Shown one piece after another: positions 6,601 to 26,263 of a DNA stretch of 64,000 bases. A model generated the notes under the pieces. The model saw nothing but the letters and a program-made list of their open reading frames with translations, was not told where the DNA came from and searched no databases. The first letter of the stretch is position 1. The number at the start of each line of letters is the position of its first letter. The translations under genes were made by a program, and so were the position numbers. The DNA comes from Microcoleus vaginatus PCC 9802. GTDB taxonomy: Bacteria > Cyanobacteriota > Cyanobacteriia > Cyanobacteriales > Microcoleaceae. The stretch is taken from the NCBI GenBank assembly GCA_022701275.1, contig CP031740.1, positions 1,375,001-1,439,000 of the forward strand, given 5' to 3'.

Positions 6601-9125
6601 TATAAATTTGTCCAGCTATCATCTGCTACCAGGTTTCTGCCGATAGTTAAATAATCCACAGCAGCAGCATAAGCTGTAGAATTTTTAGCTTTACGTCCCG
6701 CAATTAAGTTCAAGGAAGCTAGTTGATTTCTTTCGGTGCGATCGACAATTAATTCCACTCCAATATTCAAGTGGTTGACAATATCAAATATTCGATCTTC
6801 TTTTTCATCTTCTGGGGTATTACTCAACAACAATCTGCCAATTTTTAGGTGAGTTGACTGTTTTGCCTCATCGGGAATCAAAGAATAAGAAGCTTGTTGA
6901 ACGCGATCGTGCAAAAATTTGTAACTGGGCAATTGACAATCGGCAACAGCTAATGGTGTAGACTCTCCATCATCTGCAAAAAATTTGTAAACTTCACTTT
7001 GCGGTAAAATTAGACCTTCTTGCAATGCTTTCCATAAATCAGCCGCAGTATCTATTTGAGATTTTTCACAAACAACGGCTAAGGTTTCTAAATCAAATTG
7101 ACTGCCAATACAAGCAGCTAGTTGTAAAATGTTTTGAGTAGTTAGCGGCAATTTTTGCAATTGAGTCGCCATAAATTCCACGACATCATCGCTGACTGCC
7201 AATTCTCTAATTTTAGTAATATCGCACTGCCAACCACCCCTTTGTCCCCCATCCAACGGGGTAAAATCGAAATAGATTAACTTATCTTCATGCAGCTTTT
7301 TGAGGAATTGATTGCTAAAAAAAGGATTGCCTTTAGTTTTTTGAAAAATCAATTCTGTTAAAGAAATCGAGCGAGACTGCGGACAACTTAAAGCATCAGC
7401 AACTAGACGATTTAAGTCAATTTTTGAAAGTGGCGCGAGAGTAATTTGATTAATTATAGGGGCTGGGCGCTCAATACTGCGATTTGGTAGATTGCGAATC
7501 TCTGATAAAGTCAGCATTAAGGGATGAACGCTGGAAACTTCATTATCTCGATAAGCGCCAATTAGCAGCAAATGTTGACCTTCTGATTCGCCGAGCAACA
7601 ATTGCATTAGTTTCAGAGATGCTGAATCTGCCCATTGTAAATCATCTAAGAATATCACTAAGGGGTGATTTTTGGTAGCAAAGACACGAATGAACTTTTG
7701 AAATAACAGATTGAAGCGATTTTGTGCAGGACTGGGTTCTAATTCCTGGACAGGAGGTTGCTGGCCAATCAGCAGTTCTAATTCTGGGATAACATCAATA
7801 ATTACCTGAGCATTATCGCCTAAAGCCGATAAGATTTGGGCTTGCCACTGCTGAACTTGAGTAACACTTTCTGTCAGTAATTGCTGCAGGAAACTTTGCA
7901 AAGCTTGTACCCAAGCTGAGAAGGGAATATCACGCCTGAATTGGTCGAATTTCCCTTTGATAAAGTATCCCCGCTGCTGGACGATTGGTTTGTGAACTTC
8001 GTTCACCACAGCGGTTTTGCCAATCCCGGAAAAGCCTGCTACCAACATGATTTCGGTAGTAGCTCTAGGGGGGAGTTTCTGAGGCTCTCGGCTGCTACTA
8101 GGGGAAACCTCCAAATCGGCGGCTGCGAAATTTTCTTGGGGACAAGCGACCCGCTGGAAGGCTGCGAATAGGGCCAAAACTTCGCTTTCTCTGCCGTAAA
8201 GTTTTTCTGGAATGACAAAGCGTTCGGAAATGTCTCTGCTGCCTAATTCAAACAGTTGAATAGTGCCATGATCTGAGTATTCTTTTAAGCATTTTTCTAA
8301 ATCGTGTTTGATGCCACCAACTGTTTGATAGCGTGCTTCGGCTGTTTTCGCCATCAGTTTGAGCACTATGTCATTCAATACTTGGGGGATGACAGGATTG
8401 AGGGCGATCGGGTGAATTGGCTGGCGAGCAATGTGAGAGTGAACCAATTCCATCGGATCGTTAGATTGGAATGGCAATTGTCCTGTCAACAGTTCGTAAA
8501 AAGTTACTCCTAGTGAGTAAAAATCGGTGCGGTAGTCAATCCCACGATTCATTCTTCCAGTTTGTTCGGGAGACATATAAGCTAATGTCCCTTCTAAGAT
8601 GTTGGGATTTTTAATTTGTGGATTTTCTCGAGGTAAAAGCGAGGAAATACTAAAGTCTATTATTTTAACTTCTTGAGTTTTAGGGTTAATTATAATGTTC
8701 TGGGGTTTGATATCTTTGTGAATAACTTGGTGGTTATATATTGATTCTAAACAAAAGCAGATTTTAATGGCTATTTGTAAAAAATTTTCTAGGCTAGTGG
8801 TAATTGTGTCCTTGAGGTTCCAAGCATCATTGGTGATGTATTCTGCTAGAGAAATTCCGCCAAAATCCTCCATCACTAAGGCAAAACCGTTACGGTATAC
8901 TTCCAGACTTAAGTGTTTGACAATACCGGAATTTTCAATATTTTTGGCAATGGTGTACTGATTGCGAAACTGCACCAGTTCGCTGAAAGTGGGATACTCT
9001 GATTTGAGCAGTTTGATGACGACTGGTTGATTGTCTGATTCAGAAAAACCTCGGTAAACCAAGGTTCTAGAGCCTGAGTAGAGTTGTTCGATCGCCCGGT
9101 AGCCGGGAATTGATATCAGGGTCAT
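3675..9125 (-). CDS. Giant Ser/Thr protein kinase - AAA ATPase - TPR-like - GAF - PP2C (SpoIIE) phosphatase
   Basis: 1816 residues from the ATG at 9125 (MTLISIPGYR); the frame extends 18 codons further but family members start here. Protein kinase about 8-280, with Lys38, HKD at 136-138 and DFS at 157-159 in place of DFG. AAA/STAND ATPase about 305-640, Walker A GFSGIGKT at 364-371 and Walker B LVIFLDDLQWAD. A long helical repeat region follows, then a GAF domain about 1355-1500, a coiled coil, and a PP2C/SpoIIE domain in the last 240 residues (EVGGDYYD, GDVTGHGLESG, DGIPEA, FDDITLL). Most cyanobacterial relatives end in a histidine kinase; this one ends in a phosphatase. The PP2C half is nearly identical to that of the gene at 11074. 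A likely target is the STAS protein at 1223. Confidence 0.9.
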   Translation of the reverse strand: MTLISIPGYRAIEQLYSGSRTLVYRGFSESDNQPVVIKLLKSEYPTFSELVQFRNQYTIAKNIENSGIVKHLSLEVYRNGFALVMEDFGGISLAEYITNDAWNLKDTITTSLENFLQIAIKICFCLESIYNHQVIHKDIKPQNIIINPKTQEVKIIDFSISSLLPRENPQIKNPNILEGTLAYMSPEQTGRMNRGIDYRTDFYSLGVTFYELLTGQLPFQSNDPMELVHSHIARQPIHPIALNPVIPQVLNDIVLKLMAKTAEARYQTVGGIKHDLEKCLKEYSDHGTIQLFELGSRDISERFVIPEKLYGRESEVLALFAAFQRVACPQENFAAADLEVSPSSSREPQKLPPRATTEIMLVAGFSGIGKTAVVNEVHKPIVQQRGYFIKGKFDQFRRDIPFSAWVQALQSFLQQLLTESVTQVQQWQAQILSALGDNAQVIIDVIPELELLIGQQPPVQELEPSPAQNRFNLLFQKFIRVFATKNHPLVIFLDDLQWADSASLKLMQLLLGESEGQHLLLIGAYRDNEVSSVHPLMLTLSEIRNLPNRSIERPAPIINQITLAPLSKIDLNRLVADALSCPQSRSISLTELIFQKTKGNPFFSNQFLKKLHEDKLIYFDFTPLDGGQRGGWQCDITKIRELAVSDDVVEFMATQLQKLPLTTQNILQLAACIGSQFDLETLAVVCEKSQIDTAADLWKALQEGLILPQSEVYKFFADDGESTPLAVADCQLPSYKFLHDRVQQASYSLIPDEAKQSTHLKIGRLLLSNTPEDEKEDRIFDIVNHLNIGVELIVDRTERNQLASLNLIAGRKAKNSTAYAAAVDYLTIGRNLVADDSWTNLYDLTIDLYVEAVEAEYLNTKFDLSHQLAEIVLCRAHNLLDQFRVYEAKIQSYIAQNQMKSAVDTGLQALGMLGVSLETKLPATVEISALANLPEINDPYKIAALRILCAIASAAYLASPELYPAVVFTMAHICSKYGNSAPASYAYACCSLICEVIGEIELGYQYGQLSLQVLDKFPSQEFHSKVVMVYNACVRHWKEPSRSSIASLVSAVQSGLETGDIEYACYSAMYLCIYSFFSGEELSSVDTKYEQYLELMLNSKQEYQTYYTKIWRQLTLNLQGLAEDNCRLVGESFNEDEMLPVLLAANNVSSIFGVYFAKLVVNYLFGDRDRAVENAHLAEQYVAGVGSLMMVPQYNFYHSLALVALYPHADSIAQEQYLNQVAAKQEKMQTWAFHAPMNYQHKYDLVAAEIARVLGHRLEAMDLYDRAIATAKKNQYLQEEALAGELAAKFYLELGKDKIARVYLTDAYYAYARWGAPAKIHDLEQKYPQLLYQILEQKTSLYAGDTIDQTIVEPLTSTGNNIGNRLDLATVIKASQAISGEINVEELLSTLIRILTQNAGASKGSIILERAGKLSIVAKCLDERCYLPNIPLSQSQHLPITAINYVWRTRETLVINDIATENIFAADPYIIQHQPKSVLCTPIVNQGKAIGILYLENSLAPGAFTPDRLEVLKILSSQAAISLENALLYQTLEDKVEERTAQLAQANQAISALNQRLKTENLRMSAELDILKQMQQLILPKPAELAAIAELDIAGFMEPAEEVGGDYYDVLCTDGVVTVCIGDVTGHGLESGILMVMTQAAVRALKEVQEIDPVRFLDTLNRTIYKNVQRMNSDKNMTLALLNYADSTISISGQHEETLVVRKGGQIQRIDTIDLGFPIGLDEDISDWISHVLVDLEPGDGVVLYTDGIPEARNMHKKFYGIERLCEVVSQNWHLSAEQIKEATIDDLRKFIGKQKVFDDITLLVLKQQGNIVHNL

Positions 9126-15626: not shown

Positions 15627-16775
15627 TTAGACCGCTGAATTATCTTTTTTACCTTTTAGCCAATAGGCGCTCATCTCTCCTTTTCCTTTAATCGTGATCG
15701 CACCTCTTTCCTCAAATAAATACCGCTCTTTTAACAGTTCGTAAATAGCCGTAGTAACTTGAATATATCCCGGTAATCCTTGACATTCCATCCGAGAAGC
15801 AACATTAACAGTATCTCCCCACAAGTCATAGATAAATTTTTTAGTGCCAATTACGCCAGCAACTACGGGTCCTGTATGAATGCCAATCCGAATTTGAAAT
15901 GGTTCGCCTCTGTCAGTTTGAAAATCAGCGATCGCTTCCTGCATATCCAAAGCCATATTGGCGATCGCTTCTACATGATCTGCCCTCGGCACAGGCAACC
16001 CCCCCGCTACCATATAAGCATCTCCAATTGTTTTAATTTTTTCCAAACCGTGTTTTTCAGTTAGTTGGTCAAACCTGGAAAAAATCTCGTTCAGTACATT
16101 TACCAATTCTAGAGGTAACATTCTAGCAGCAATAGATGTAAAATCGACAATATCGGCAAAAAGAACTGTTGCTGAATCAAACCTCTGAGCAGGAGAACCC
16201 TCGCCCTTTTTCAAATTTTCAACAATCGCTGCTGGTAAAATATTCAGCAATAAATGATCGGACTTGGTTTGAGCAAGCCGTAAAGCTACCTCCACCCCTT
16301 GTCGGTCTTTAATTTCGTTTTGCAAACGTTCGACAAGTTCTTTGAATTGCTTCGTTTGCTCTTGAAGTAACTGTTGTTGACTTTGAATGGTTAACTGATT
16401 TGCCACTCGTGCCAATACTTCTTTAGCGTGAAAAGGTTTAGTAATATAGTCAACTCCTCCCACATCAAAGGCTTTCACCTTATCTAAAACGTCATCTAAG
16501 GCGCTTAAGAAAATCACGGGAATGGAACTGGTTTTTGGTGAAGCTTTCAACTTTTCACATACCTCATATCCATTCATGTCTGGCATCATCACGTCCAGCA
16601 AAATTAGAGTCGGCGGAAACTCCAGCACTGTCGCGATCGCCCTTTGCCCGTTCAGCACTTTACGAACCTGATACCCTTGTTCGGTCAAGATTGTAGATAA
16701 AAGCCGGACGTTATCGGGCTTATCATCAACTACTAAAATGTTGGCTTGAATGGTAGGATATTGATTGCTGTCCAT
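15627..16775 (-). CDS. Response regulator - class III adenylate cyclase
   Basis: 382 residues from the ATG at 16775 (a GTG at 16787 is possible). The receiver domain covers about 12-130 with phospho-acceptor Asp61 (LILLDVMMPDMNG), DD at 17-18 and Lys in TKPF. A coiled coil leads to a cyclase domain about 205-370 with FADIVDFT, KTIGDAYM and YDLWGDTVNVASRME. The Lys and the Asp before LWGD are the adenine-selecting pair, so ATP is the likely substrate. It lies downstream of the two ethylene-receptor-type kinases on the same strand, 175 bp after the hybrid kinase, and could be a phosphorelay output for one of them; that link is inferred. Confidence 0.88.
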   Translation of the reverse strand: MDSNQYPTIQANILVVDDKPDNVRLLSTILTEQGYQVRKVLNGQRAIATVLEFPPTLILLDVMMPDMNGYEVCEKLKASPKTSSIPVIFLSALDDVLDKVKAFDVGGVDYITKPFHAKEVLARVANQLTIQSQQQLLQEQTKQFKELVERLQNEIKDRQGVEVALRLAQTKSDHLLLNILPAAIVENLKKGEGSPAQRFDSATVLFADIVDFTSIAARMLPLELVNVLNEIFSRFDQLTEKHGLEKIKTIGDAYMVAGGLPVPRADHVEAIANMALDMQEAIADFQTDRGEPFQIRIGIHTGPVVAGVIGTKKFIYDLWGDTVNVASRMECQGLPGYIQVTTAIYELLKERYLFEERGAITIKGKGEMSAYWLKGKKDNSAV

Positions 16776-16950
16776 GCGAGGGCTCACGGTAGTTTTTTAA
16801 GCTCAAAGATATTAACACTTAATAATTCGCTCTCCCTCCAAACGAAACAGTATAAATTTTGATTTTCTCTCCTACAAAGAGAGGGCAGGGAGAGGTTGGG
16901 GGGGGCAAAAGTTAAGTCTTTTTTAAATAGGAGATGCCCCTAAGTAGAGA

Positions 16951-19900
16951 TTAGTTGGAAACTGGTACTCTAATCATCATAAGTGCTGATTGCGCTAGCT
17001 CTATAATATCGTCAAACAGGAAATCGTCCACTAAAGTAGTTAAAACTTGTGCGGCTACAGCAAATTCTCTAGGCAATTCCTCAATCAACTTAAGAATTTT
17101 ATCGTCGCAACATTCATGAGCAGCATGAGATATCTTCTCCACCCACTCAGGAGGCATTTGACCGAGTTGTAACTCAACAGATTGATTGCTAGTCACGCCG
17201 CTAATTTCGCTTTCATTTTCTAGTGGTGCCTCCACAGATTCCTCGTAAAGGTAGCGCACTCCTAAAAGTTCTTCCATCTTCGCAAATAATATCTTTGCCT
17301 CGAAGGGTTTACGCATGAAATCATCGCAGCCTGCTCCTAAAATAGTTTGTCGTTCCTCTTCAAAAGCGCTAGCAGTAAGAGCAACTATTACAGTTTGTTT
17401 TCCGAGAGGATGAGCTTTAATTTTTCTGGTGGCTTCATAGCCATCCATGACAGGCATCTGCATATCCATCCAGATCAGGTGCGGTTGCCAATCCTCCCAT
17501 ACAGCAATCGCTTCTTGACCATCTCTAGCTTCTCGCACGAGGATGCCTAGTGGTGACAATAATCTGTCTATGACTAGGCAGTTATCGGCGCGATCGTCAA
17601 CAACCAAAATCCGGTATTCTGGTTGATTCGGCGCTAAACTAATTACTTTTTTCTGCGGTTTAAGGATTTTAATCTCGCTTGGAGCGGCAAGACTGATTTG
17701 AATATCAAATGCAAACTTACTTCCCAACTCTGGTGTACTGCTGACAGTAATATCTCCTCCCATCATTTGTACAAATTTGCGGCTAATTGGTAAACCTAAT
17801 CCAGTCCCCTGTTGAGATTTTTGACCTGTTTTTGTTTGCTCAAAGGGTTCAAATAACTTATTCATTTCTTCTGCGGCAATGCCAAGGCCCGTATCTTCAA
17901 TTTCAAACTGAAGGCGTAACACTTCCGGGTGAAGGTCATGCGCGTCTACACAATCACAGTGTGCCAAGCTTTCGGACTGATTAAAACCAGTGCACCATCC
18001 GGGTTTTCTTTGTATAGCTGCGGTTTCAACGGCTAAGCTTTCGGAATGTTCACAACCCGCGCCGACAAGTTTTGTTTGTGTGTCCGAAAACTCTGCGGTT
18101 TCAGCCCCCAAACTTTTTTCTACCTTCTTTTTCACTCGCAAAGTAACGCTACCCATCTCTGTAAACTTGATCGCATTTCCTACAAGATTAATCAAAATTT
18201 GCCGCAACTTACCTTCATCTCCACTAACAAAGTCCGGTACACCGTCACCCACTTCAAGATTTAGCTGCAATTTCTTAGATTTAGCTTTTAATCGAAACAT
18301 TTCTTCTAAGGTTTTTAGCAAGCGCATTAAATTAAAACTGCTTTCATTAAGCTGACTTCGGCCGGCTTCAATTTTGGACATTTCCAAAATGTCATTAATC
18401 AGGGCAAGCAAGTGTTCACCGGCGCGATTAATAATTTCTAGGTGCTGTAGGTGTTGATTGTTGAGAGATGAATCGCGCACCATCACCTGACTAAATCCGA
18501 GAATGGCATTCAGGGGAGTCCGCAGTTCGTGGCTCATAGAAGAAAGGAATTCGCTCTTGGCGCGGTTAGCTGTATCAGCAGCTACGACAGCTTTTTGTAA
18601 TGCTGTTTCTGCTAATTTGCGTTCCGCAAGTTCTGTTTTAGCTTGTTCAAAAAGGGTGGATTGCTGAATAGCAATTGTTAGCTGCACGGAAATTTGCTGG
18701 AGAGATTCTATCTCAGAAGAGTTCCAATGCCTTTGACTGCGGCAGTGATGAGCAATGAGTAGCCCCCATAGTTTTTCACCTTGTAAAAGGGGAACGACTA
18801 GGTTAGCTTTAATTTCCAACTCCCTTAGTAAATTAAGGTGGCACTCTGAAATACCTGCCGTATAAATATTGTCGATCGCGCGGACGTGTCCCTGCTCGTA
18901 AACAGAGACGTAGCGTTCTCGAAAACAAGGGTCATTAATGTCAATCCCCAAAATCGGCATCGTACCGACGGCTATCGACTCGACGGCTATAAATCCACTC
19001 CAATCTGGATTAAAGCGGTAAATAACTGTTCTATCAGTTGACAAAAACTGGCGGACTTCTTCCACAGCCATTGCCAGCACTTCTTCTAGGTTAAGAGAGG
19101 AGCGAATTCGCTCTTGAATGGAATTCACTAGCCGCTCCCTTTTTACTTGTTGCTGCAAGGCTATTTCCGCCTGTTTGCGAGCAGTAACATCTACTCCATA
19201 ACCAACGCACTCCACAGGTAGGCCAGCAGCATTTTTGACTAACTTTATCTCGTCGTAAATCCAGCGATAACTGCCGTCTTTGTGCCGTTCGCGGTATTCG
19301 TAAGAAATCGATTCTTTTTCCAAGAGTTTAGCGAATGAAGTAGCAACAATTTCTCTATCTTCTGGGTGAATCAGGCTATGCCAATCAAGGGAACCATCAA
19401 GAAATTCTCGCGCTTCATAACCCATGATTGAAACAATATTATCGCTGACAAATGTTACGTCATAATTTCCCCCTAATTTGCAGCTAAAAATCACCGCCGG
19501 AGTAGTCGCCAGCAAATATTGCAAGCGTTCGGTGACAGAGCGCAAGTTTAACTCAGCTTGTTTGCGATCGCGAGCTTCCATTGCTAAAGCTGCAATCTGT
19601 GCCACATAGCTAGCGAAGCTTTGTTCGTCGAGCGTCCAATTCCTCAGCGTTCCCTGATGTTCTAAACAAATTACACCCGCAATTTGTCCTTGATGGCTAA
19701 TAGGAACATCTAGCATCGACGAGATGTTTAAAGGAATCAAATAAGATTCGCTAAATTCTTGGGTGCGCGGATCGGTTTTGGCATCAACCACTGCGATCGG
19801 CTGTTCTGTATTCAAAGCTTGGAAATAGCTAGGATAGTCAGCAACTTTCAGTTGTGCATCCTTACTGTGTTGATGGGGCGTCAGTTCGTAGAGGTCGGCA

Positions 19901-20649
19901 CAGCACATTCCGGATTTATCTTCTTGATAAAACCAAATACTTGCCCGCTCAACATTCAGAGTACGGGTTGCCATTTGTGTAATCTCTCTCAAAGCCTCGC
20001 TGATATTTCCCTCGTAGATACTAGAATTTTTGGCTAATTCTAGCAATCCATTTTGTTGTTCTGTTAACCTAGTTTCTCGTTCGCGCAAAGCAGATTCAGC
20101 AGCTATTTTTTCTCTAATTTCCCCTTCTAAATAACCGTTGATTTGTCTCAACTCTGCGGTGCGCTCTTCCACTTTAACTTCTAAGTCATCATAAGCACAG
20201 CGCAAAGCTAATTCTGCATCTTCACGTACGGCGATTTCACACTGCAACTTGCGATTTATTGTCTCTAAGTCTTGCGGGGTTTTTAAAGATAAAAGCTGTG
20301 GCAATACTGTTACCATCGAGGCTGCTGTGTAGCAGGAAACCAGTGCAGTAATTCCTTTTTCAATCCCCGACAGCCAATAAGCGGAATGCCACAACGTCCA
20401 AATTTCTAGCAAGTGACCCGTGCCGCAGAGAACAATAAATGCACCAAATAAAGCAAATATTCCTAAAAAAGGAACATCGCGCCGCTTGAAGATAAAATAA
20501 ATTAGCATCGCCGCAATTGAATAGTAGGCGATCGCCATTAAAAAGTCCCCTGTTACGTGCAGCCAAACTAAAGGTGTTTGCCACAGATAGCAATGACCGT
20601 GAGGCATATACTGAGTTGGGGAAAAGATATTTTTGAGTGATTCCCACAT
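16951..20649 (-). CDS. Hybrid histidine kinase with ethylene-binding membrane domain and DXCF cyanobacteriochrome GAF
   Basis: 1232 residues. Three membrane helices (about 25-120) match the plant ETR1 ethylene-binding domain: Asp35, Tyr42, Cys75 and His79 have the spacing of ETR1 Asp25, Tyr32, Cys65, His69 (Cu(I)/ethylene site). Then GAF about 205-355 and PAS about 375-495. A second GAF (about 510-665) carries DPCF at 573-576 and ECH with Cys603, the two cysteines of DXCF cyanobacteriochromes. Kinase core: His707 (SHELRTP) and G-box QGTGLGLPIS. Receiver: Asp1062. A 70-residue tail follows. The architecture resembles Synechocystis Slr1212 (Etr1/UirS) with extra GAF and receiver modules. It should read ethylene and blue/violet-range light; ligand and bilin binding are inferred from residues. 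Confidence 0.88.
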   Translation of the reverse strand: MWESLKNIFSPTQYMPHGHCYLWQTPLVWLHVTGDFLMAIAYYSIAAMLIYFIFKRRDVPFLGIFALFGAFIVLCGTGHLLEIWTLWHSAYWLSGIEKGITALVSCYTAASMVTVLPQLLSLKTPQDLETINRKLQCEIAVREDAELALRCAYDDLEVKVEERTAELRQINGYLEGEIREKIAAESALRERETRLTEQQNGLLELAKNSSIYEGNISEALREITQMATRTLNVERASIWFYQEDKSGMCCADLYELTPHQHSKDAQLKVADYPSYFQALNTEQPIAVVDAKTDPRTQEFSESYLIPLNISSMLDVPISHQGQIAGVICLEHQGTLRNWTLDEQSFASYVAQIAALAMEARDRKQAELNLRSVTERLQYLLATTPAVIFSCKLGGNYDVTFVSDNIVSIMGYEAREFLDGSLDWHSLIHPEDREIVATSFAKLLEKESISYEYRERHKDGSYRWIYDEIKLVKNAAGLPVECVGYGVDVTARKQAEIALQQQVKRERLVNSIQERIRSSLNLEEVLAMAVEEVRQFLSTDRTVIYRFNPDWSGFIAVESIAVGTMPILGIDINDPCFRERYVSVYEQGHVRAIDNIYTAGISECHLNLLRELEIKANLVVPLLQGEKLWGLLIAHHCRSQRHWNSSEIESLQQISVQLTIAIQQSTLFEQAKTELAERKLAETALQKAVVAADTANRAKSEFLSSMSHELRTPLNAILGFSQVMVRDSSLNNQHLQHLEIINRAGEHLLALINDILEMSKIEAGRSQLNESSFNLMRLLKTLEEMFRLKAKSKKLQLNLEVGDGVPDFVSGDEGKLRQILINLVGNAIKFTEMGSVTLRVKKKVEKSLGAETAEFSDTQTKLVGAGCEHSESLAVETAAIQRKPGWCTGFNQSESLAHCDCVDAHDLHPEVLRLQFEIEDTGLGIAAEEMNKLFEPFEQTKTGQKSQQGTGLGLPISRKFVQMMGGDITVSSTPELGSKFAFDIQISLAAPSEIKILKPQKKVISLAPNQPEYRILVVDDRADNCLVIDRLLSPLGILVREARDGQEAIAVWEDWQPHLIWMDMQMPVMDGYEATRKIKAHPLGKQTVIVALTASAFEEERQTILGAGCDDFMRKPFEAKILFAKMEELLGVRYLYEESVEAPLENESEISGVTSNQSVELQLGQMPPEWVEKISHAAHECCDDKILKLIEELPREFAVAAQVLTTLVDDFLFDDIIELAQSALMMIRVPVSN

Positions 20650-20756: not shown

Positions 20757-22310
20757 TCAATCCAGCTTTTTCATAACAGTTTGCTTCTGGAGTAGGGGGC
20801 GATCGCCAAATTGCGAGCGCAAAGGAATTTCAATGATAAACTCAGTACCTCTGCCAACCTCGGAAATGCAGCGCAAATAACCTTCATGGGCTTGAATAAT
20901 CTGATAAGCAATTGCCAAACCCAGCCCGGTACCAGCACCGATAGGTTTGGTCGTATAAAATGGATCGTAAATTTTAGCGATCGCATCATAATCTATGCCA
21001 GGGCCATTATCAGCAATGTGAATCTGCACCCACTTGCCATCAACTAAAACCGTGCGGATGCGAATTTTTAGCAGTGGGCAATAGGTATTTTGTAAGTTGT
21101 CGGAGAAATTATTTTCCCAATAGCCGTTGCTCGAATATCCCTGATGTACAATCTGTTCTAAAGCATCAATAGCATTAGAACAAATATTCATAAATACTTG
21201 GTTAATCTGCCCAGCGTAGCATTCTAATTCGGGCAAATCTCCATACTCCTTAATCACTTGAATCGGCGGACGTTTTGGTTCTTCTTTCAAGCGGTGCTGC
21301 AAAATCATTAAAGTGCTGTCGATCCCTTCATGGATATTTACTTTCTTCATATCAGCTTCGTCTAAACGGGAGAAAGTGCGTAAAGATTTAACAATGTCCT
21401 TAATCCGTTCTGCTCCAATTTTAATCGAAGCAAAAAGTTTTTGCAGGTCTTTTAAAATAAAATCGAGTTCGATAGTGTGAATCTTGTCTGCAATTTCCGG
21501 CGCCGGAGTGGGGTAATAAACTTGATAAGCCTTAATCAATGCCAAAATATCTTTAATGTATTCCTCAGCCGGAATCAGATTGCCATAAATGAAGTTAACA
21601 GGGTTATTGATTTCGTGAGCAACCCCAGCTACCATTTGCCCCAAAGAAGACATTTTTTCAGTTTGCACGAGTTGAGCTTGGGCGTTTTTGAGCTGTTGCA
21701 GAGTTTCCTCTAGCTGCTGAGTTCGTTCCCGTAGTTTCGCTTCCGAGTGCCGCAATGAATTTTCAGCCAAAGAGCGATCGCGATTTTCCTGTTGCAAAAG
21801 TTCATTGGTTGATTCTAAAGCGATCGTCCTCTCAATCACCCGTTTTTCCAATTCTAGCATTAATTTCGAGAGTGCTTCTTGAGCTTGTTTGCGATCGCCA
21901 ATCTCATTTTGTAAAGCTAAATTTGCCACCGCTAATTGAGCGGGACTGGGGATAGCCAAGATTTTTGGGATTAGTTCCACCAGCACTGCTGCTGTAGATA
22001 GCGAAATCAGCGCTGTAATCCCTTTAAGAAAACCAGAGAACCAATAATTAGGATGCCACAGCGTCCATATTTCCATAATATGGGTAATACCGCAGCAGAT
22101 AATAAAAGAGCCAAACAGCATGAAAACCCAGTCAAAAGGCACATCTTTCCGTTTTTTGACAATATAAATGAGGGTCAGGGGTATCAAAAAATAAGCGACG
22201 GCAATCAAACCATCGGACAAAACGTGTAGCCCCACTAATCCCGGCTTCCACAAGTAGCAATGACCGTGAGGAATAAAATAATTAGGGAACATTGTATGAA
22301 CCATTTGCAT
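20757..22310 (-). CDS. Histidine kinase with ethylene-binding-type membrane domain
   Basis: 517 residues. The N-terminal three-helix domain has Asp33, Tyr40, Cys73 and His77 (CCGITH), again with the exact spacing of the ETR1 copper/ethylene site. A coiled coil (about 125-215) joins it to a HEINNP-type kinase core with His232, the N-box NICSNAIDALEQ and GAGTGLGLAIAYQI. No receiver, GAF or PAS domain is present. It lies 107 bp upstream of the hybrid kinase on the same strand; both begin with a closely similar PHGHCYLW segment and presumably arose by duplication. The two may be co-transcribed. The start could also be the second or third Met (22304 or 22292). Confidence 0.88.
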   Translation of the reverse strand: MQMVHTMFPNYFIPHGHCYLWKPGLVGLHVLSDGLIAVAYFLIPLTLIYIVKKRKDVPFDWVFMLFGSFIICCGITHIMEIWTLWHPNYWFSGFLKGITALISLSTAAVLVELIPKILAIPSPAQLAVANLALQNEIGDRKQAQEALSKLMLELEKRVIERTIALESTNELLQQENRDRSLAENSLRHSEAKLRERTQQLEETLQQLKNAQAQLVQTEKMSSLGQMVAGVAHEINNPVNFIYGNLIPAEEYIKDILALIKAYQVYYPTPAPEIADKIHTIELDFILKDLQKLFASIKIGAERIKDIVKSLRTFSRLDEADMKKVNIHEGIDSTLMILQHRLKEEPKRPPIQVIKEYGDLPELECYAGQINQVFMNICSNAIDALEQIVHQGYSSNGYWENNFSDNLQNTYCPLLKIRIRTVLVDGKWVQIHIADNGPGIDYDAIAKIYDPFYTTKPIGAGTGLGLAIAYQIIQAHEGYLRCISEVGRGTEFIIEIPLRSQFGDRPLLQKQTVMKKLD

Positions 22311-22799: not shown

Positions 22800-24131
22800 T
22801 TGCAAATTATGACGATAGATGAGTTACTACAGCTAACTCGTGTCCGATTGCAAAAAGATTTATATCCCGTACAAGCAATCATACTCCGCCAAGTTTGGGA
22901 AGGAAAGACTTATACAAGCATCGCCTCTACCTCTAATTACGGAGAGAATTACCTGAGAAACATCGCCTCGTCCTTGTGGCAATCCCTCTCTAACATCTTG
23001 CAGACACCTATTAGCAAATCTAATTTTCGCTCCTCAGTAGAATCGCGTTCCCTGAGCGCAGACGAACGAGAATTAATTGAAGAATTCACCCGCAGCCAAT
23101 GCCTAGCAACACCTTTAGAATTTCCCGGGCCTCCAGTACCCCTCGGTTCCCCATTTTATATCCATCAGCCGCTAATTGAAGAACTCACCTATCGAGAGAT
23201 TAGTAAAGCCGGAAGTGTGCTGCGGATTAAAGCTCCCAGGAAGATGGGTAAAAGTTCGCTCCTGCGAAGGATTGTAGCTCGCGCGACTTCTCTTGGCTAT
23301 CGAACTGTAAGTTTAGATTTTCAGCAAGCCGAGGAAGCTGTTTTAGACAACCTAGATAAATTTTTACGATAGTTTTGTGCCAACATCAGCCGTCACCTAG
23401 AATTGCCACCTCTGTTAGATGATTATTGGGATGAAGGCATGGGTAGCAAAGTAAGCTGTGCTATCTATTTACAACAATATATTTTAGACACAATAAATAC
23501 TCCTCTTGTCTTAGCTTTAAATGAAGTCAATAGGATTTTTGAGTCTCCAAAAATTGCCAGAGAATTTTTGCCGCTCCTGCGAAGCTGGCCTGAAGAAGCA
23601 AAGCGGATTGAAACTCTAGGCAAACTGCGGTTAATCGTTCTTCACTCCACAGAAATTTATATTCCTTTAAAGCTCACTGAATCGCCTTTTAATGTCGGTT
23701 TACCGCTGCAATTGCCCTATTTTACAGAAGAGCAGATACTTGCTTTAGCGCAGTGTCACGGACTGGATTGGACAGATAGCCCCGATGCCGATCGACTCAT
23801 GGCAATGGTGGGGGGACATCCTTATCTGGTGTGGCTAGCTCTTTACCACCTCTGTCAAAATAGTTTAACGCTAGATCAGCTACTACAAAAAGCTCCCACA
23901 ATAGCAGTAATTTATAAATATTATTTGCGGAGTTTTTGAGTGACATTGCAAGAGTATCCCGAACTTGCGGTTGCACTTAAACAAGTGGTATAATCGGAAG
24001 ACGGAGTGGAATTAGATCCGATAGTAGCTTCTAAGTTAGTTAGTATGGGGCTAATTCATATCGATAATAACCGCTGTACGCTGAGCTGTGAGTTGTATCG
24101 CCTATATTTTGCTTCGCACAACTTTATTTAG
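22800..24131 (+). pseudogene. vMAP-type HTH plus AAA-like ATPase gene with three in-frame stops
   Basis: One continuous frame of 444 codons interrupted by TAG at 23370-23372, TGA at 23937-23939 and TAA at 23991-23993. The first 65 residues resemble the vMAP N-terminal domain of vWA-MoxR-associated proteins (MTIDELLQLTRVRLQ, TSIAS, YLRNIASSLW). Then comes an AAA-like domain with P-loop RKMGKSSLLRR. Family members end as here (LYRLYFASHNF). Because the frame is intact apart from three point stops, inactivation looks recent. Such ATPases occur in predicted conflict or signalling systems; function is not established. The short pieces between stops are unlikely to be functional. Confidence 0.8.
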
Positions 24132-24246
24132 CTCGAGGTTTGAGAGTTTATTTGCGTAAGTTATATTAGAATGAAGCGATCGCACCACATCCTCACCTCT
24201 CAAGAAACTCACTAGATACTTACATTTAAATTAACCCATAAACGGC

Positions 24247-26263
24247 ATGACCAAGGTTACATACCAAATTGGAGGCAGTCTTGCTAGTGATGCACCTACC
24301 TATGTGGAACGACAAGCAGATATCGAACTTTATGAAGCCTTAAAAAATGGCGAATTTTGCTACATTCTCAACTCCCGACAAATGGGCAAATCTTCCCTTA
24401 TCGTTCGCACCCTGCACCGACTGCAAGCAGAAGGATTTCAATGCAGTACCATTGACATGACCCGCATCGGCAGCGAAAACATTACTCCTTTACAGTGGTA
24501 CAAAGGAATCGTTGGGATTTGTGGCGCAGCTTTAATTTATTAGGAATAATTAATTTAAAAACTTGGTGGAAAGAACAAGAAGAAGTTTCTCTCCTGCAAA
24601 GATTGAGTCAGTTTATTGAAGAGATTTTATTGACCCGATTTGCGGAAGAGCGAATTTTTATATTGGTCGATGAGATTGATAGTATTCTCAGTTTAAATTT
24701 TCCGGTAGATGATTTTGCCTTGATTCGTTTCTGCTACAATCAACGAGCTATCAATCCAGAATATACCCGCATTACCTTCGCAATTTTCGGAGTAGCTACA
24801 CCCAGTGATTTAATCGCCGATAAAAATCGGACACCTTTTAATATTGAAGTGGCGATCGATTTGTCAGGATTTAGCTTAGAAGAAGCGCAACCATTAGCGA
24901 AAGGGTTAGAAAATGTCATAGCCAATCCGCAGGCAGTTCTCAAAGAAATCTTAGTTTGGACTTCAGGACAGCCATTTTTAACGCAAAAAATATGTGAATT
25001 AGTAGTAAAAATAGCGGGTAATCCCACAGGGGTGATTTAAAAATACCACCGGGAACCGAGGGAGTTTTTGTGGAATCGTTGTTGAGAGAAAACATCATCA
25101 ATAAATGGGAATCGCAAGATGAGCCAGAGCATTTAAAGACAATTCGCGATCGCATAATTGGCAACGAACAACTCACTGCCCGTAGCTTAGGCATCTATCA
25201 AAACCTCTTACAATGTGGTGAAAGTGAAGCGGATGATAGTCGAGAGCAGATCGAACTGCTGTTATCAGGTTTGGTAGTAAAACAACAAGGTTTTTTAAAG
25301 GTAACTAACCCGATTAATCAAGCAGTTTTTCACCTACAATGGGTAGAAAAACAGTTAGAGCAACTGCGTCCTTATTCCCAAGCTTTCAACGCTTGGATCG
25401 CTTCAAAACAAACCGATGAATCGCGATTGTTGCGCGGACAATCGTTAAAAGACGCTTCCTACTGGGCCCAGGGAAAAAGTTTGAGCGATTTGGATTATCA
25501 CTTTTTAGCCGCTTCTCAAGAATTAGACAGGCTGGAAGTGCAGCAAGCGCTGGAAGCAGCGAGGCTCACAGAAGTTGAAGCCAGACTCACAGAAGAACGC
25601 AAGCGGTTAGTTTTAGAGCAAGAGACAGCGAAGCGGCAGCGAAGATTTCTTGGGGCGCTGAGTGGATCACTGATAGTTGCGATCGCATTTGGCATCCTCG
25701 CCCTCTGGCAATATCGTCAAGCCGTTACCAGCGAAAGTCAAGCCCTCACCTCCTCCTCCGCAGGACAATTCGCCTGCCAACAGCGATTAGACGCTCTCGT
25801 AACTGCCATCAAAGCCAGACGTAGGCTCGACAGTTTCCCTAGTTCCAGCCTTCAATTGCAATCTCAAGTTCAACAAGTGCTGCAACAAGCCATCTACGGA
25901 ACAGCAGAATTCAATCGCCTGTCGGGTCATCCCAGTGGGGTTTTAGCACTTGATGCCAGTCCAGACGGTCAACTCATCGCTACAGGTAGCAACGACCAAA
26001 CGGTCAAGCTTTGGCAGCTCGATACAGAAATAACGATGCTAACGGGACATGAGGGGAATGTTTGGGGGGTGGCGTTTAGTCCCGATGGTAAACAAATTGC
26101 GTCGGTTGGGGACGATCGCACAATCATTCTGTGGGATGTGGAGCGCATTCTCAAACTCGATGAACTGGCTTATGCGTGCGATCGCGTCCGAGATTATCTG
26201 CGAACAAATACCGATGTGAAGGAGGAGGATAGACATTTGTGCGATCGTATTAAAACGGAATAA
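24247..26263 (+). pseudogene. AAA-like ATPase - WD40 gene, two frameshifts and a shortened propeller
   Basis: The 5' part has an AAA-like P-loop ([12 protein letters not shown]). A frameshift near 24505 (after PLQWYKGIV) moves to the frame [10 protein letters not shown], which includes the Walker B-like FILVDEIDS. A second frameshift near 25025 leads to GDLKIPPGTEGVFVESLL, a linker, a membrane-like segment (GSLIVAIAFGILALW) and only two WD40 repeats before the normal-looking C-terminus CDRIKTE. Relatives carry a full propeller, so repeats were deleted too. It is adjacent to another dead AAA gene on the same strand. Confidence 0.8.

Follow-up and report, generated by a model that had tools for sequence, protein, structure and literature searches.

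A putative ethylene- and light-sensing hybrid histidine kinase of Microcoleus vaginatus and its conserved receiver-cyclase neighbour

The window analysed here is a stretch of 64,000 nucleotides (nt) of Microcoleus vaginatus PCC 9802 (contig CP031740.1, positions 1,375,001 to 1,439,000), whose genome comprises 6.70 Mb in a single contig; the closest named relatives at the locus are mostly Microcoleus. It encodes a hybrid histidine kinase in which an ethylene-binding domain (EBD, Pfam ETR1_N) and a two-cysteine GAF domain of the cyanobacteriochrome type stand in one chain. An earlier sequence-only reading had given the open reading frame (ORF) of this kinase, and its coordinates and strand were borne out by the sequence. 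What is new here is a conserved receiver-cyclase neighbour of such a kinase, which suggests where its signal goes. The features are as follows, with window positions, strand and amino acid (aa) numbers; a Pfam HATPase match was also obtained in the kinase.

16951..20649 (-): hybrid histidine kinase, 1232 aa, intact ORF, domain order EBD-GAF1-PAS-GAF2(DXCF)-HisKA-HATPase-REC (ORF and Pfam)
20284..20571 (-): EBD (ETR1_N), aa 27-122 (Pfam, E 1.9e-36)
19576..20007 (-): GAF1 (Pfam GAF_2), aa 215-358 (Pfam)
19201..19455 (-): PAS (PAS_3), aa 399-483 (Pfam)
18667..19092 (-): GAF2 (Pfam GAF), aa 520-661, DXCF cyanobacteriochrome (Pfam, structure matches and alignment)
18925..18927 (-): Cys575, the second (DXCF) cysteine, in INDPCFRERY (direct reading)
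18841..18843 (-): Cys603, the canonical bilin cysteine (ECH), in GISECHLNLL (direct reading)
18361..18561 (-): HisKA, aa 697-763, with the HELRTP box (Pfam)
17278..17610 (-): receiver (Response_reg), aa 1014-1124 (Pfam)
15627..16787 (-): receiver-class III (adenylate/guanylate) cyclase, 386 aa, 163 nt downstream of the kinase (Response_reg and Guanylate_cyc)

A homology scan of genome contigs returned 76 distinct loci, and the collection of EBD ORFs, which includes further sampled genomes, comprised 168, some of them from one contig twice; loci and proteins are designated by L numbers. The orthologous family of the window kinase consists of 27 rows with, counting the window, 23 different GAF2 sequences (L119, L120, L203 and L204 repeat L017, L025, L028 and L019 and were not counted as distinct). 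The results showed that the receiver-cyclase gene stands directly after the kinase gene, on the same strand, in all 23 distinct loci whose sequence extends far enough downstream, namely the window, L008-L012, L014-L028, L049 and L118, with repeats of one contig excluded. This count includes L027, whose EBD is broken, and L049, which is a kinase end only and comes from the same metagenome-assembled genome as L031. L013 contains the first ~100 aa of the cyclase before its contig ends, and L031 ends too early.

Two loci outside the family, L052 (Laspinema) and L055 (Oscillatoria S11), encode a kinase-receiver half that is 51-52% identical, joined to an unrelated 2.4-2.6-kaa sensor of the Ser/Thr-kinase/AAA/GAF/PAS type without an EBD, and in both a cyclase of 61-63% identity follows immediately after the kinase. 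L040 is a more distant and weaker case of the pair (39% and 41%). On the other side, L034 (Argonema) shares the EBD and GAF1 at 73% and has a different GAF and kinase, and no such cyclase was found within ~8 kb downstream. The sensor swap in L052 and L055, together with L034, therefore indicates that the cyclase goes with the kinase half and not with the EBD, and this tracking in sequence is the behaviour that would be expected of a cognate pair. The likely output, as judged from the genes, is cyclic AMP (cAMP), the neighbour being putatively an adenylate rather than a guanylate cyclase. A literature search of titles and abstract openings found no description of a kinase with EBD and cyanobacteriochrome that is linked to a cyclase.

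The dual sensor might be real and yet have another protein as its true partner, either a transcription factor or a phosphorelay component, with the cyclase as a bystander, which we regard as rather unlikely. It is common for a hybrid kinase that ends in a receiver to work through a separate phosphotransfer protein, and this counts for such a partner. So does the relative Slr1212, which is described as acting through UirR and LsiR (PMC3546692; published work is cited here for the excerpts consulted). The unbroken adjacency across the 23 loci argues against a bystander, as does the same kinase half being still paired with the cyclase under the swapped sensor of L052 and L055.

The window EBD scored 124.6 bits against the ETR1_N model, whose Pfam cut-off is 27. 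Direct reading found Asp35, Tyr42, Cys75 and His79, the four residues on which ethylene binding depends, at the positions that the earlier reading had named, and Ile72 as well. We take the ETR1 counterparts to be Asp25, Tyr32, Cys65 and His69, which would match the exact ETR1 spacing claimed in that reading; the comparison with ETR1 was made through the Pfam ETR1_N model. No relative of the EBD was found among solved structures (best E 0.027, not meaningful), and a hydropathy scan at a threshold of 1.6 marked aa 32-84 only, so that the expected third helix was not marked. In comparisons with six relatives, the ratio of nonsynonymous to synonymous substitution rates spanned 0.15-0.33 both over the full length and within the EBD, and 0.12-0.29 within GAF2; the EBD and GAF2 are under purifying selection. 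Close pairs were looser in the receiver (0.09-0.82, the nearest pairs having few changes) and in the tail at the C terminus (0.26-0.97).

An EBD whose main role is to anchor the protein in the membrane, or that senses another cue such as peroxide or a metal, with light as the real input, is in our view quite unlikely. It would suit the 14 of 170 aligned EBD rows in which one of these four residues is absent (in one row by truncation only), two of which come from the window's genome, and also L027, which retains the remainder of the protein despite its broken EBD. None of the 14 exceptions, however, is an orthologous row of the window kinase family; the four residues of the window are intact, its EBD is under purifying selection, and the EBD of SynEtr1 is reported to be functional (PMC6682694). 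In L027 (~7900-8380), a frame change follows the EBD and the stretch up to PAS is missing, while PAS-GAF2-kinase and the cyclase are kept. The window's genome encodes seven ETR1_N proteins, the window's two and L113-L117, of which two are altered at ethylene-binding positions: Gly replaces the key Cys in L116, and Trp and Lys replace the key Cys and the key His in L117. From their sequences, L116 and L117 look like non-binding EBD variants.

The best solved relative of GAF2 is 6oap, a cyanobacteriochrome-type chain (E 2.6e-50). The sequence-only reading had singled out DPCF (Cys575) and ECH (Cys603) as a two-cysteine signature and proposed an alignment with a characterised DXCF domain. Both motifs are present, and in the alignment with 3vv4, a chain of the two-cysteine type (E 9.8e-34), DPCF falls on DPCF and ECH on ECH, ungapped in between; D573-P-C575-F and C603-H604 correspond to the DXCF motif and the canonical Cys-His of GAF2. 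Cys575, Cys603 and His604 are invariant in all 23 distinct orthologous GAF2 sequences, which is weak evidence alone because 90 of 167 GAF2 columns are invariant in this set; yet the cysteines are not a matter of chance, since they persist in every ortholog while the X of DXCF varies among P, S, N, T, Q and D. Domains of the DXCF class typically alternate between a blue and a green form (PMC11284453). An intact gene of the bilin-reductase family is present in the genome (PF05996, 256 bits); a second gene of this family lies in pieces, with internal stops, at contig 1:1934402-1935436. It is highly improbable that GAF2 carries no bilin in vivo and that its cysteines serve another role: bilin binding is predicted from sequence, which leaves some room for this, but the nearest solved relatives are cyanobacteriochrome-type chains, and none of the 23 GAF2 sequences departs from the two cysteines or the CH histidine. 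The closest relatives of GAF2 without an EBD in the sampled tree are the paralogs L272 and L273 of the same genome, a kinship hinting that GAF domains may have been shuffled between proteins.

GAF1 was considered as a second photoreceptor and rejected. The cyanobacteriochrome profile gave 19-25 bits for GAF1 vs 248 bits for GAF2, which for GAF1 is a weak generic match, and no canonical cysteine was seen by eye in the matching stretch. GAF1 is present in 10 of the 23 distinct family members (the window, L008-L015 and L118) and absent from 13 (L016-L026, L028 and L031), in which aa ~195-355 are missing and the remainder of the protein is retained. It may be ancestral and later lost, because the Argonema protein L034 also has GAF1.

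The predicted gas and light identity of the two sensors is well supported, and we consider it likely that the kinase takes both inputs, through the EBD and the DXCF GAF2, and passes them by way of its own receiver to the neighbouring cyclase and so to cAMP. The domains, the key residues with their conservation and the conserved kinase-cyclase pairing are seen in the sequences; what we infer beyond them is that the protein binds its ligand and a bilin, the colours, the passage of phosphate, cAMP over cyclic GMP and the direction of regulation. The kinase would be membrane-anchored, and its N-terminal ETR1-type domain would, by homology, bind ethylene via copper. GAF2 would hold a bilin on Cys603, and a reversible link to Cys575 would give a violet/blue-to-green photocycle. 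Both inputs would act on the single kinase, from which phosphate would move to its own receiver and then probably to the receiver of the adjacent cyclase, the last transfer being proposed because the kinase-cyclase pairing is conserved; ethylene and short-wavelength light would thereby jointly set cAMP. The sequence-only reading had suggested that gas and light are integrated inside a phosphorelay. Its dual input is backed by sequence and conservation, but it had omitted the neighbours that indicate the output.

Several points weigh against this scheme. Conserved adjacency, as a sequence observation, falls short of proof of phosphotransfer, the 163-nt gap makes a single transcript with the cyclase uncertain, and the kinase's own receiver could act as a phosphate sink. 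An insertion in the HATPase region (window ~17905-18087, aa ~855-915) varies among orthologs and might affect activity; of the 22 other distinct family loci covering the region, 7 have a stretch like it (L008-L011, L013, L016 and L024) and the others do not. Furthermore, ethylene is described as affecting Geitlerinema phototaxis in white and red light and not in blue or green (PMC6682694), a result that does not favour a simple rule of ethylene with blue light.

Of 386 cyanobacterial genomes sampled, 89 encode ETR1_N, and an EBD joined to a two-cysteine GAF was found in at least 35 of 130 EBD proteins examined and in at least 32 of the 386 genomes; the 130 comprise the window's two proteins and 128 from the phylum sample (L113-L237), the latter being ORFs of at least ~580 aa among the matches listed. 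The idea that the fusion itself is novel was therefore rejected, Slr1212 and GeiEtr2 having been published and at least 32 sampled genomes carrying the combination. All 64 rows of bilin-type GAFs with the canonical Cys in EBD proteins (59 distinct sequences, window included) were of the two-cysteine type: 38 DXCF, 26 insert-Cys and none single-Cys. The aligned rows L073 and L074 lack the canonical Cys; L149, L209, L210 and L214 (<50 bits) were left out before alignment, and rechecking the last three revealed no aligned motif. The background consisted of 85 GAF domains in 60 regions of 6 chosen genomes, drawn from 206 matches in 8 genomes among the matches listed. It held 37 DXCF, 5 insert-Cys, 27 single-Cys and 16 domains without the canonical Cys, so that 42 of 69 were two-cysteine, in a sample that is non-random and with a profile that favours two-cysteine types.

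On the GAF tree, parsimony put the switches between EBD and non-EBD rows at 8 or more, and well-supported branches forced 2 among the DXCF and 1 among the insert-Cys domains. The chance of the all-two-cysteine pattern accordingly ranges from 0.61^3 = 0.23 to 0.61^8 = 0.02, and the exclusivity does not reach significance because there are too few independent origins. An exclusive pairing of EBDs with two-cysteine GAFs is thus suggested but not established. A bolder reading, which we put forward tentatively as possible, is a gas-and-light gated cAMP switch, in which one kinase would read ethylene (for example from sunlit organic matter) and violet/blue light and would drive a dedicated cyclase. 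More broadly, the EBDs of cyanobacteria would pair exclusively with short-wavelength cyanobacteriochromes of the two-cysteine type, from two subfamilies, as a recurrent sunlight detector.

Many cyanobacteria have large proteins in which an EBD is fused to an insert-Cys domain (L156, L157, L159, L161, L162, L167, L169-L171 and L174, and further L182, L190, L195, L197, L198, L200, L215, L219 and others). These kinases form a separate branch on the GAF tree, and L156 is, by Pfam, an insert-Cys hybrid kinase with the order EBD-GAF-HisKA-HATPase-REC. The search of titles and abstract openings found no paper on an EBD with an insert-Cys domain; PMC5240096, on insert-Cys cyanobacteriochromes, contains the word "ethylene" once.

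In Synechocystis, ultraviolet-A (UV-A) and blue light increase cAMP and motility, which speaks for the scheme above, and two candidate photoreceptors, a BLUF protein and Cry-DASH, are apparently not involved, according to a review (PMC3546692). Sunlight acting on dissolved organics is a possible source of ethylene (PMC6682694). A light-and-ethylene kinase genetically tied to a receiver-controlled cyclase would make a photoreceptor-to-cAMP link testable with two adjacent genes, and the same pair would make the role of ethylene for cyanobacteria directly testable. If true, this would be a natural two-input control of a cyclic nucleotide.

Upstream of the kinase lies another gene with an EBD:

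20757..22310 (-): second EBD histidine kinase, 517 aa, without GAF and with all four EBD residues, 107 nt upstream of the kinase

Among the 22 distinct loci whose upstream sequence is informative, 12 have it (the window, L008-L013, L015-L017, L025 and L118); it is absent from L014, L020-L024, L026-L028 and L031, while L018, L019 and L049 are too short. Mixed dimers of the two EBD proteins might form, which is a candidate idea. A run of short ORFs at 22800-26263 (+) resembles, by eye, broken ATPase/WD-repeat genes.

Among known systems, the CyaC-type phosphorelay adenylate cyclase is a receiver-controlled class III enzyme in which kinase and cyclase are one protein, whereas the window kinase and cyclase are encoded by two adjacent genes. 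3vv4, which we take to be a TePixJ-type DXCF cyanobacteriochrome, has the same two-cysteine arrangement as GAF2, but its chain is annotated as a chemotaxis protein and the window protein is a hybrid kinase with an EBD. TePixJg is named as 4GLQ in PMC11284453. In insert-Cys cyanobacteriochromes, the second cysteine gives near-UV to violet forms (PMC5240096) and is placed in an insert loop, unlike that of GAF2, which is in DXCF. On the GAF tree, the window family stands apart from a group of ~810-840 aa (L187, L194, L199 and L202).

Slr1212 (SynEtr1/UirS) is a published receptor for ethylene and UV-A/blue-green light (PMC6682694, PMC5812497, PMC3546692), for which integration of light and hormone by the hybrid protein was proposed earlier (PMC3546692). 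By these descriptions it resembles the window kinase in uniting an EBD, a two-cysteine GAF and a histidine kinase in one chain, in agreement with the earlier statement that it combines the same inputs (PMC3546692, PMC6682694). It differs in that the excerpts mention no receiver for it and in its partners: UirR is AraC-type and LsiR PatA-type, whereas the window kinase neighbours a receiver-cyclase and an EBD kinase, and no UirR- or LsiR-type gene adjoins it. The sequence-only reading had also held that the window protein adds another GAF and a receiver. This fits Slr1212 as described, but GAF1 is of a non-bilin kind and missing from 13 of 23 distinct orthologs, and a receiver already exists in GeiEtr2. 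The latter protein of Geitlerinema PCC 7105, a predicted ethylene-light receptor of 1025 aa with the order EBD-PAS-PAC-GAF-kinase-receiver (PMC6682694), shares its domain order with the GAF1-less orthologs of ~1036 aa (L017) and, unlike the window kinase, has no GAF1. Its described neighbours, a diguanylate cyclase-domain protein and a starch phosphorylase (PMC6682694), also differ from those in the window. The principle of a gas-light fusion is already known, and what the window kinase adds is a variant in its probable output and its neighbourhood.

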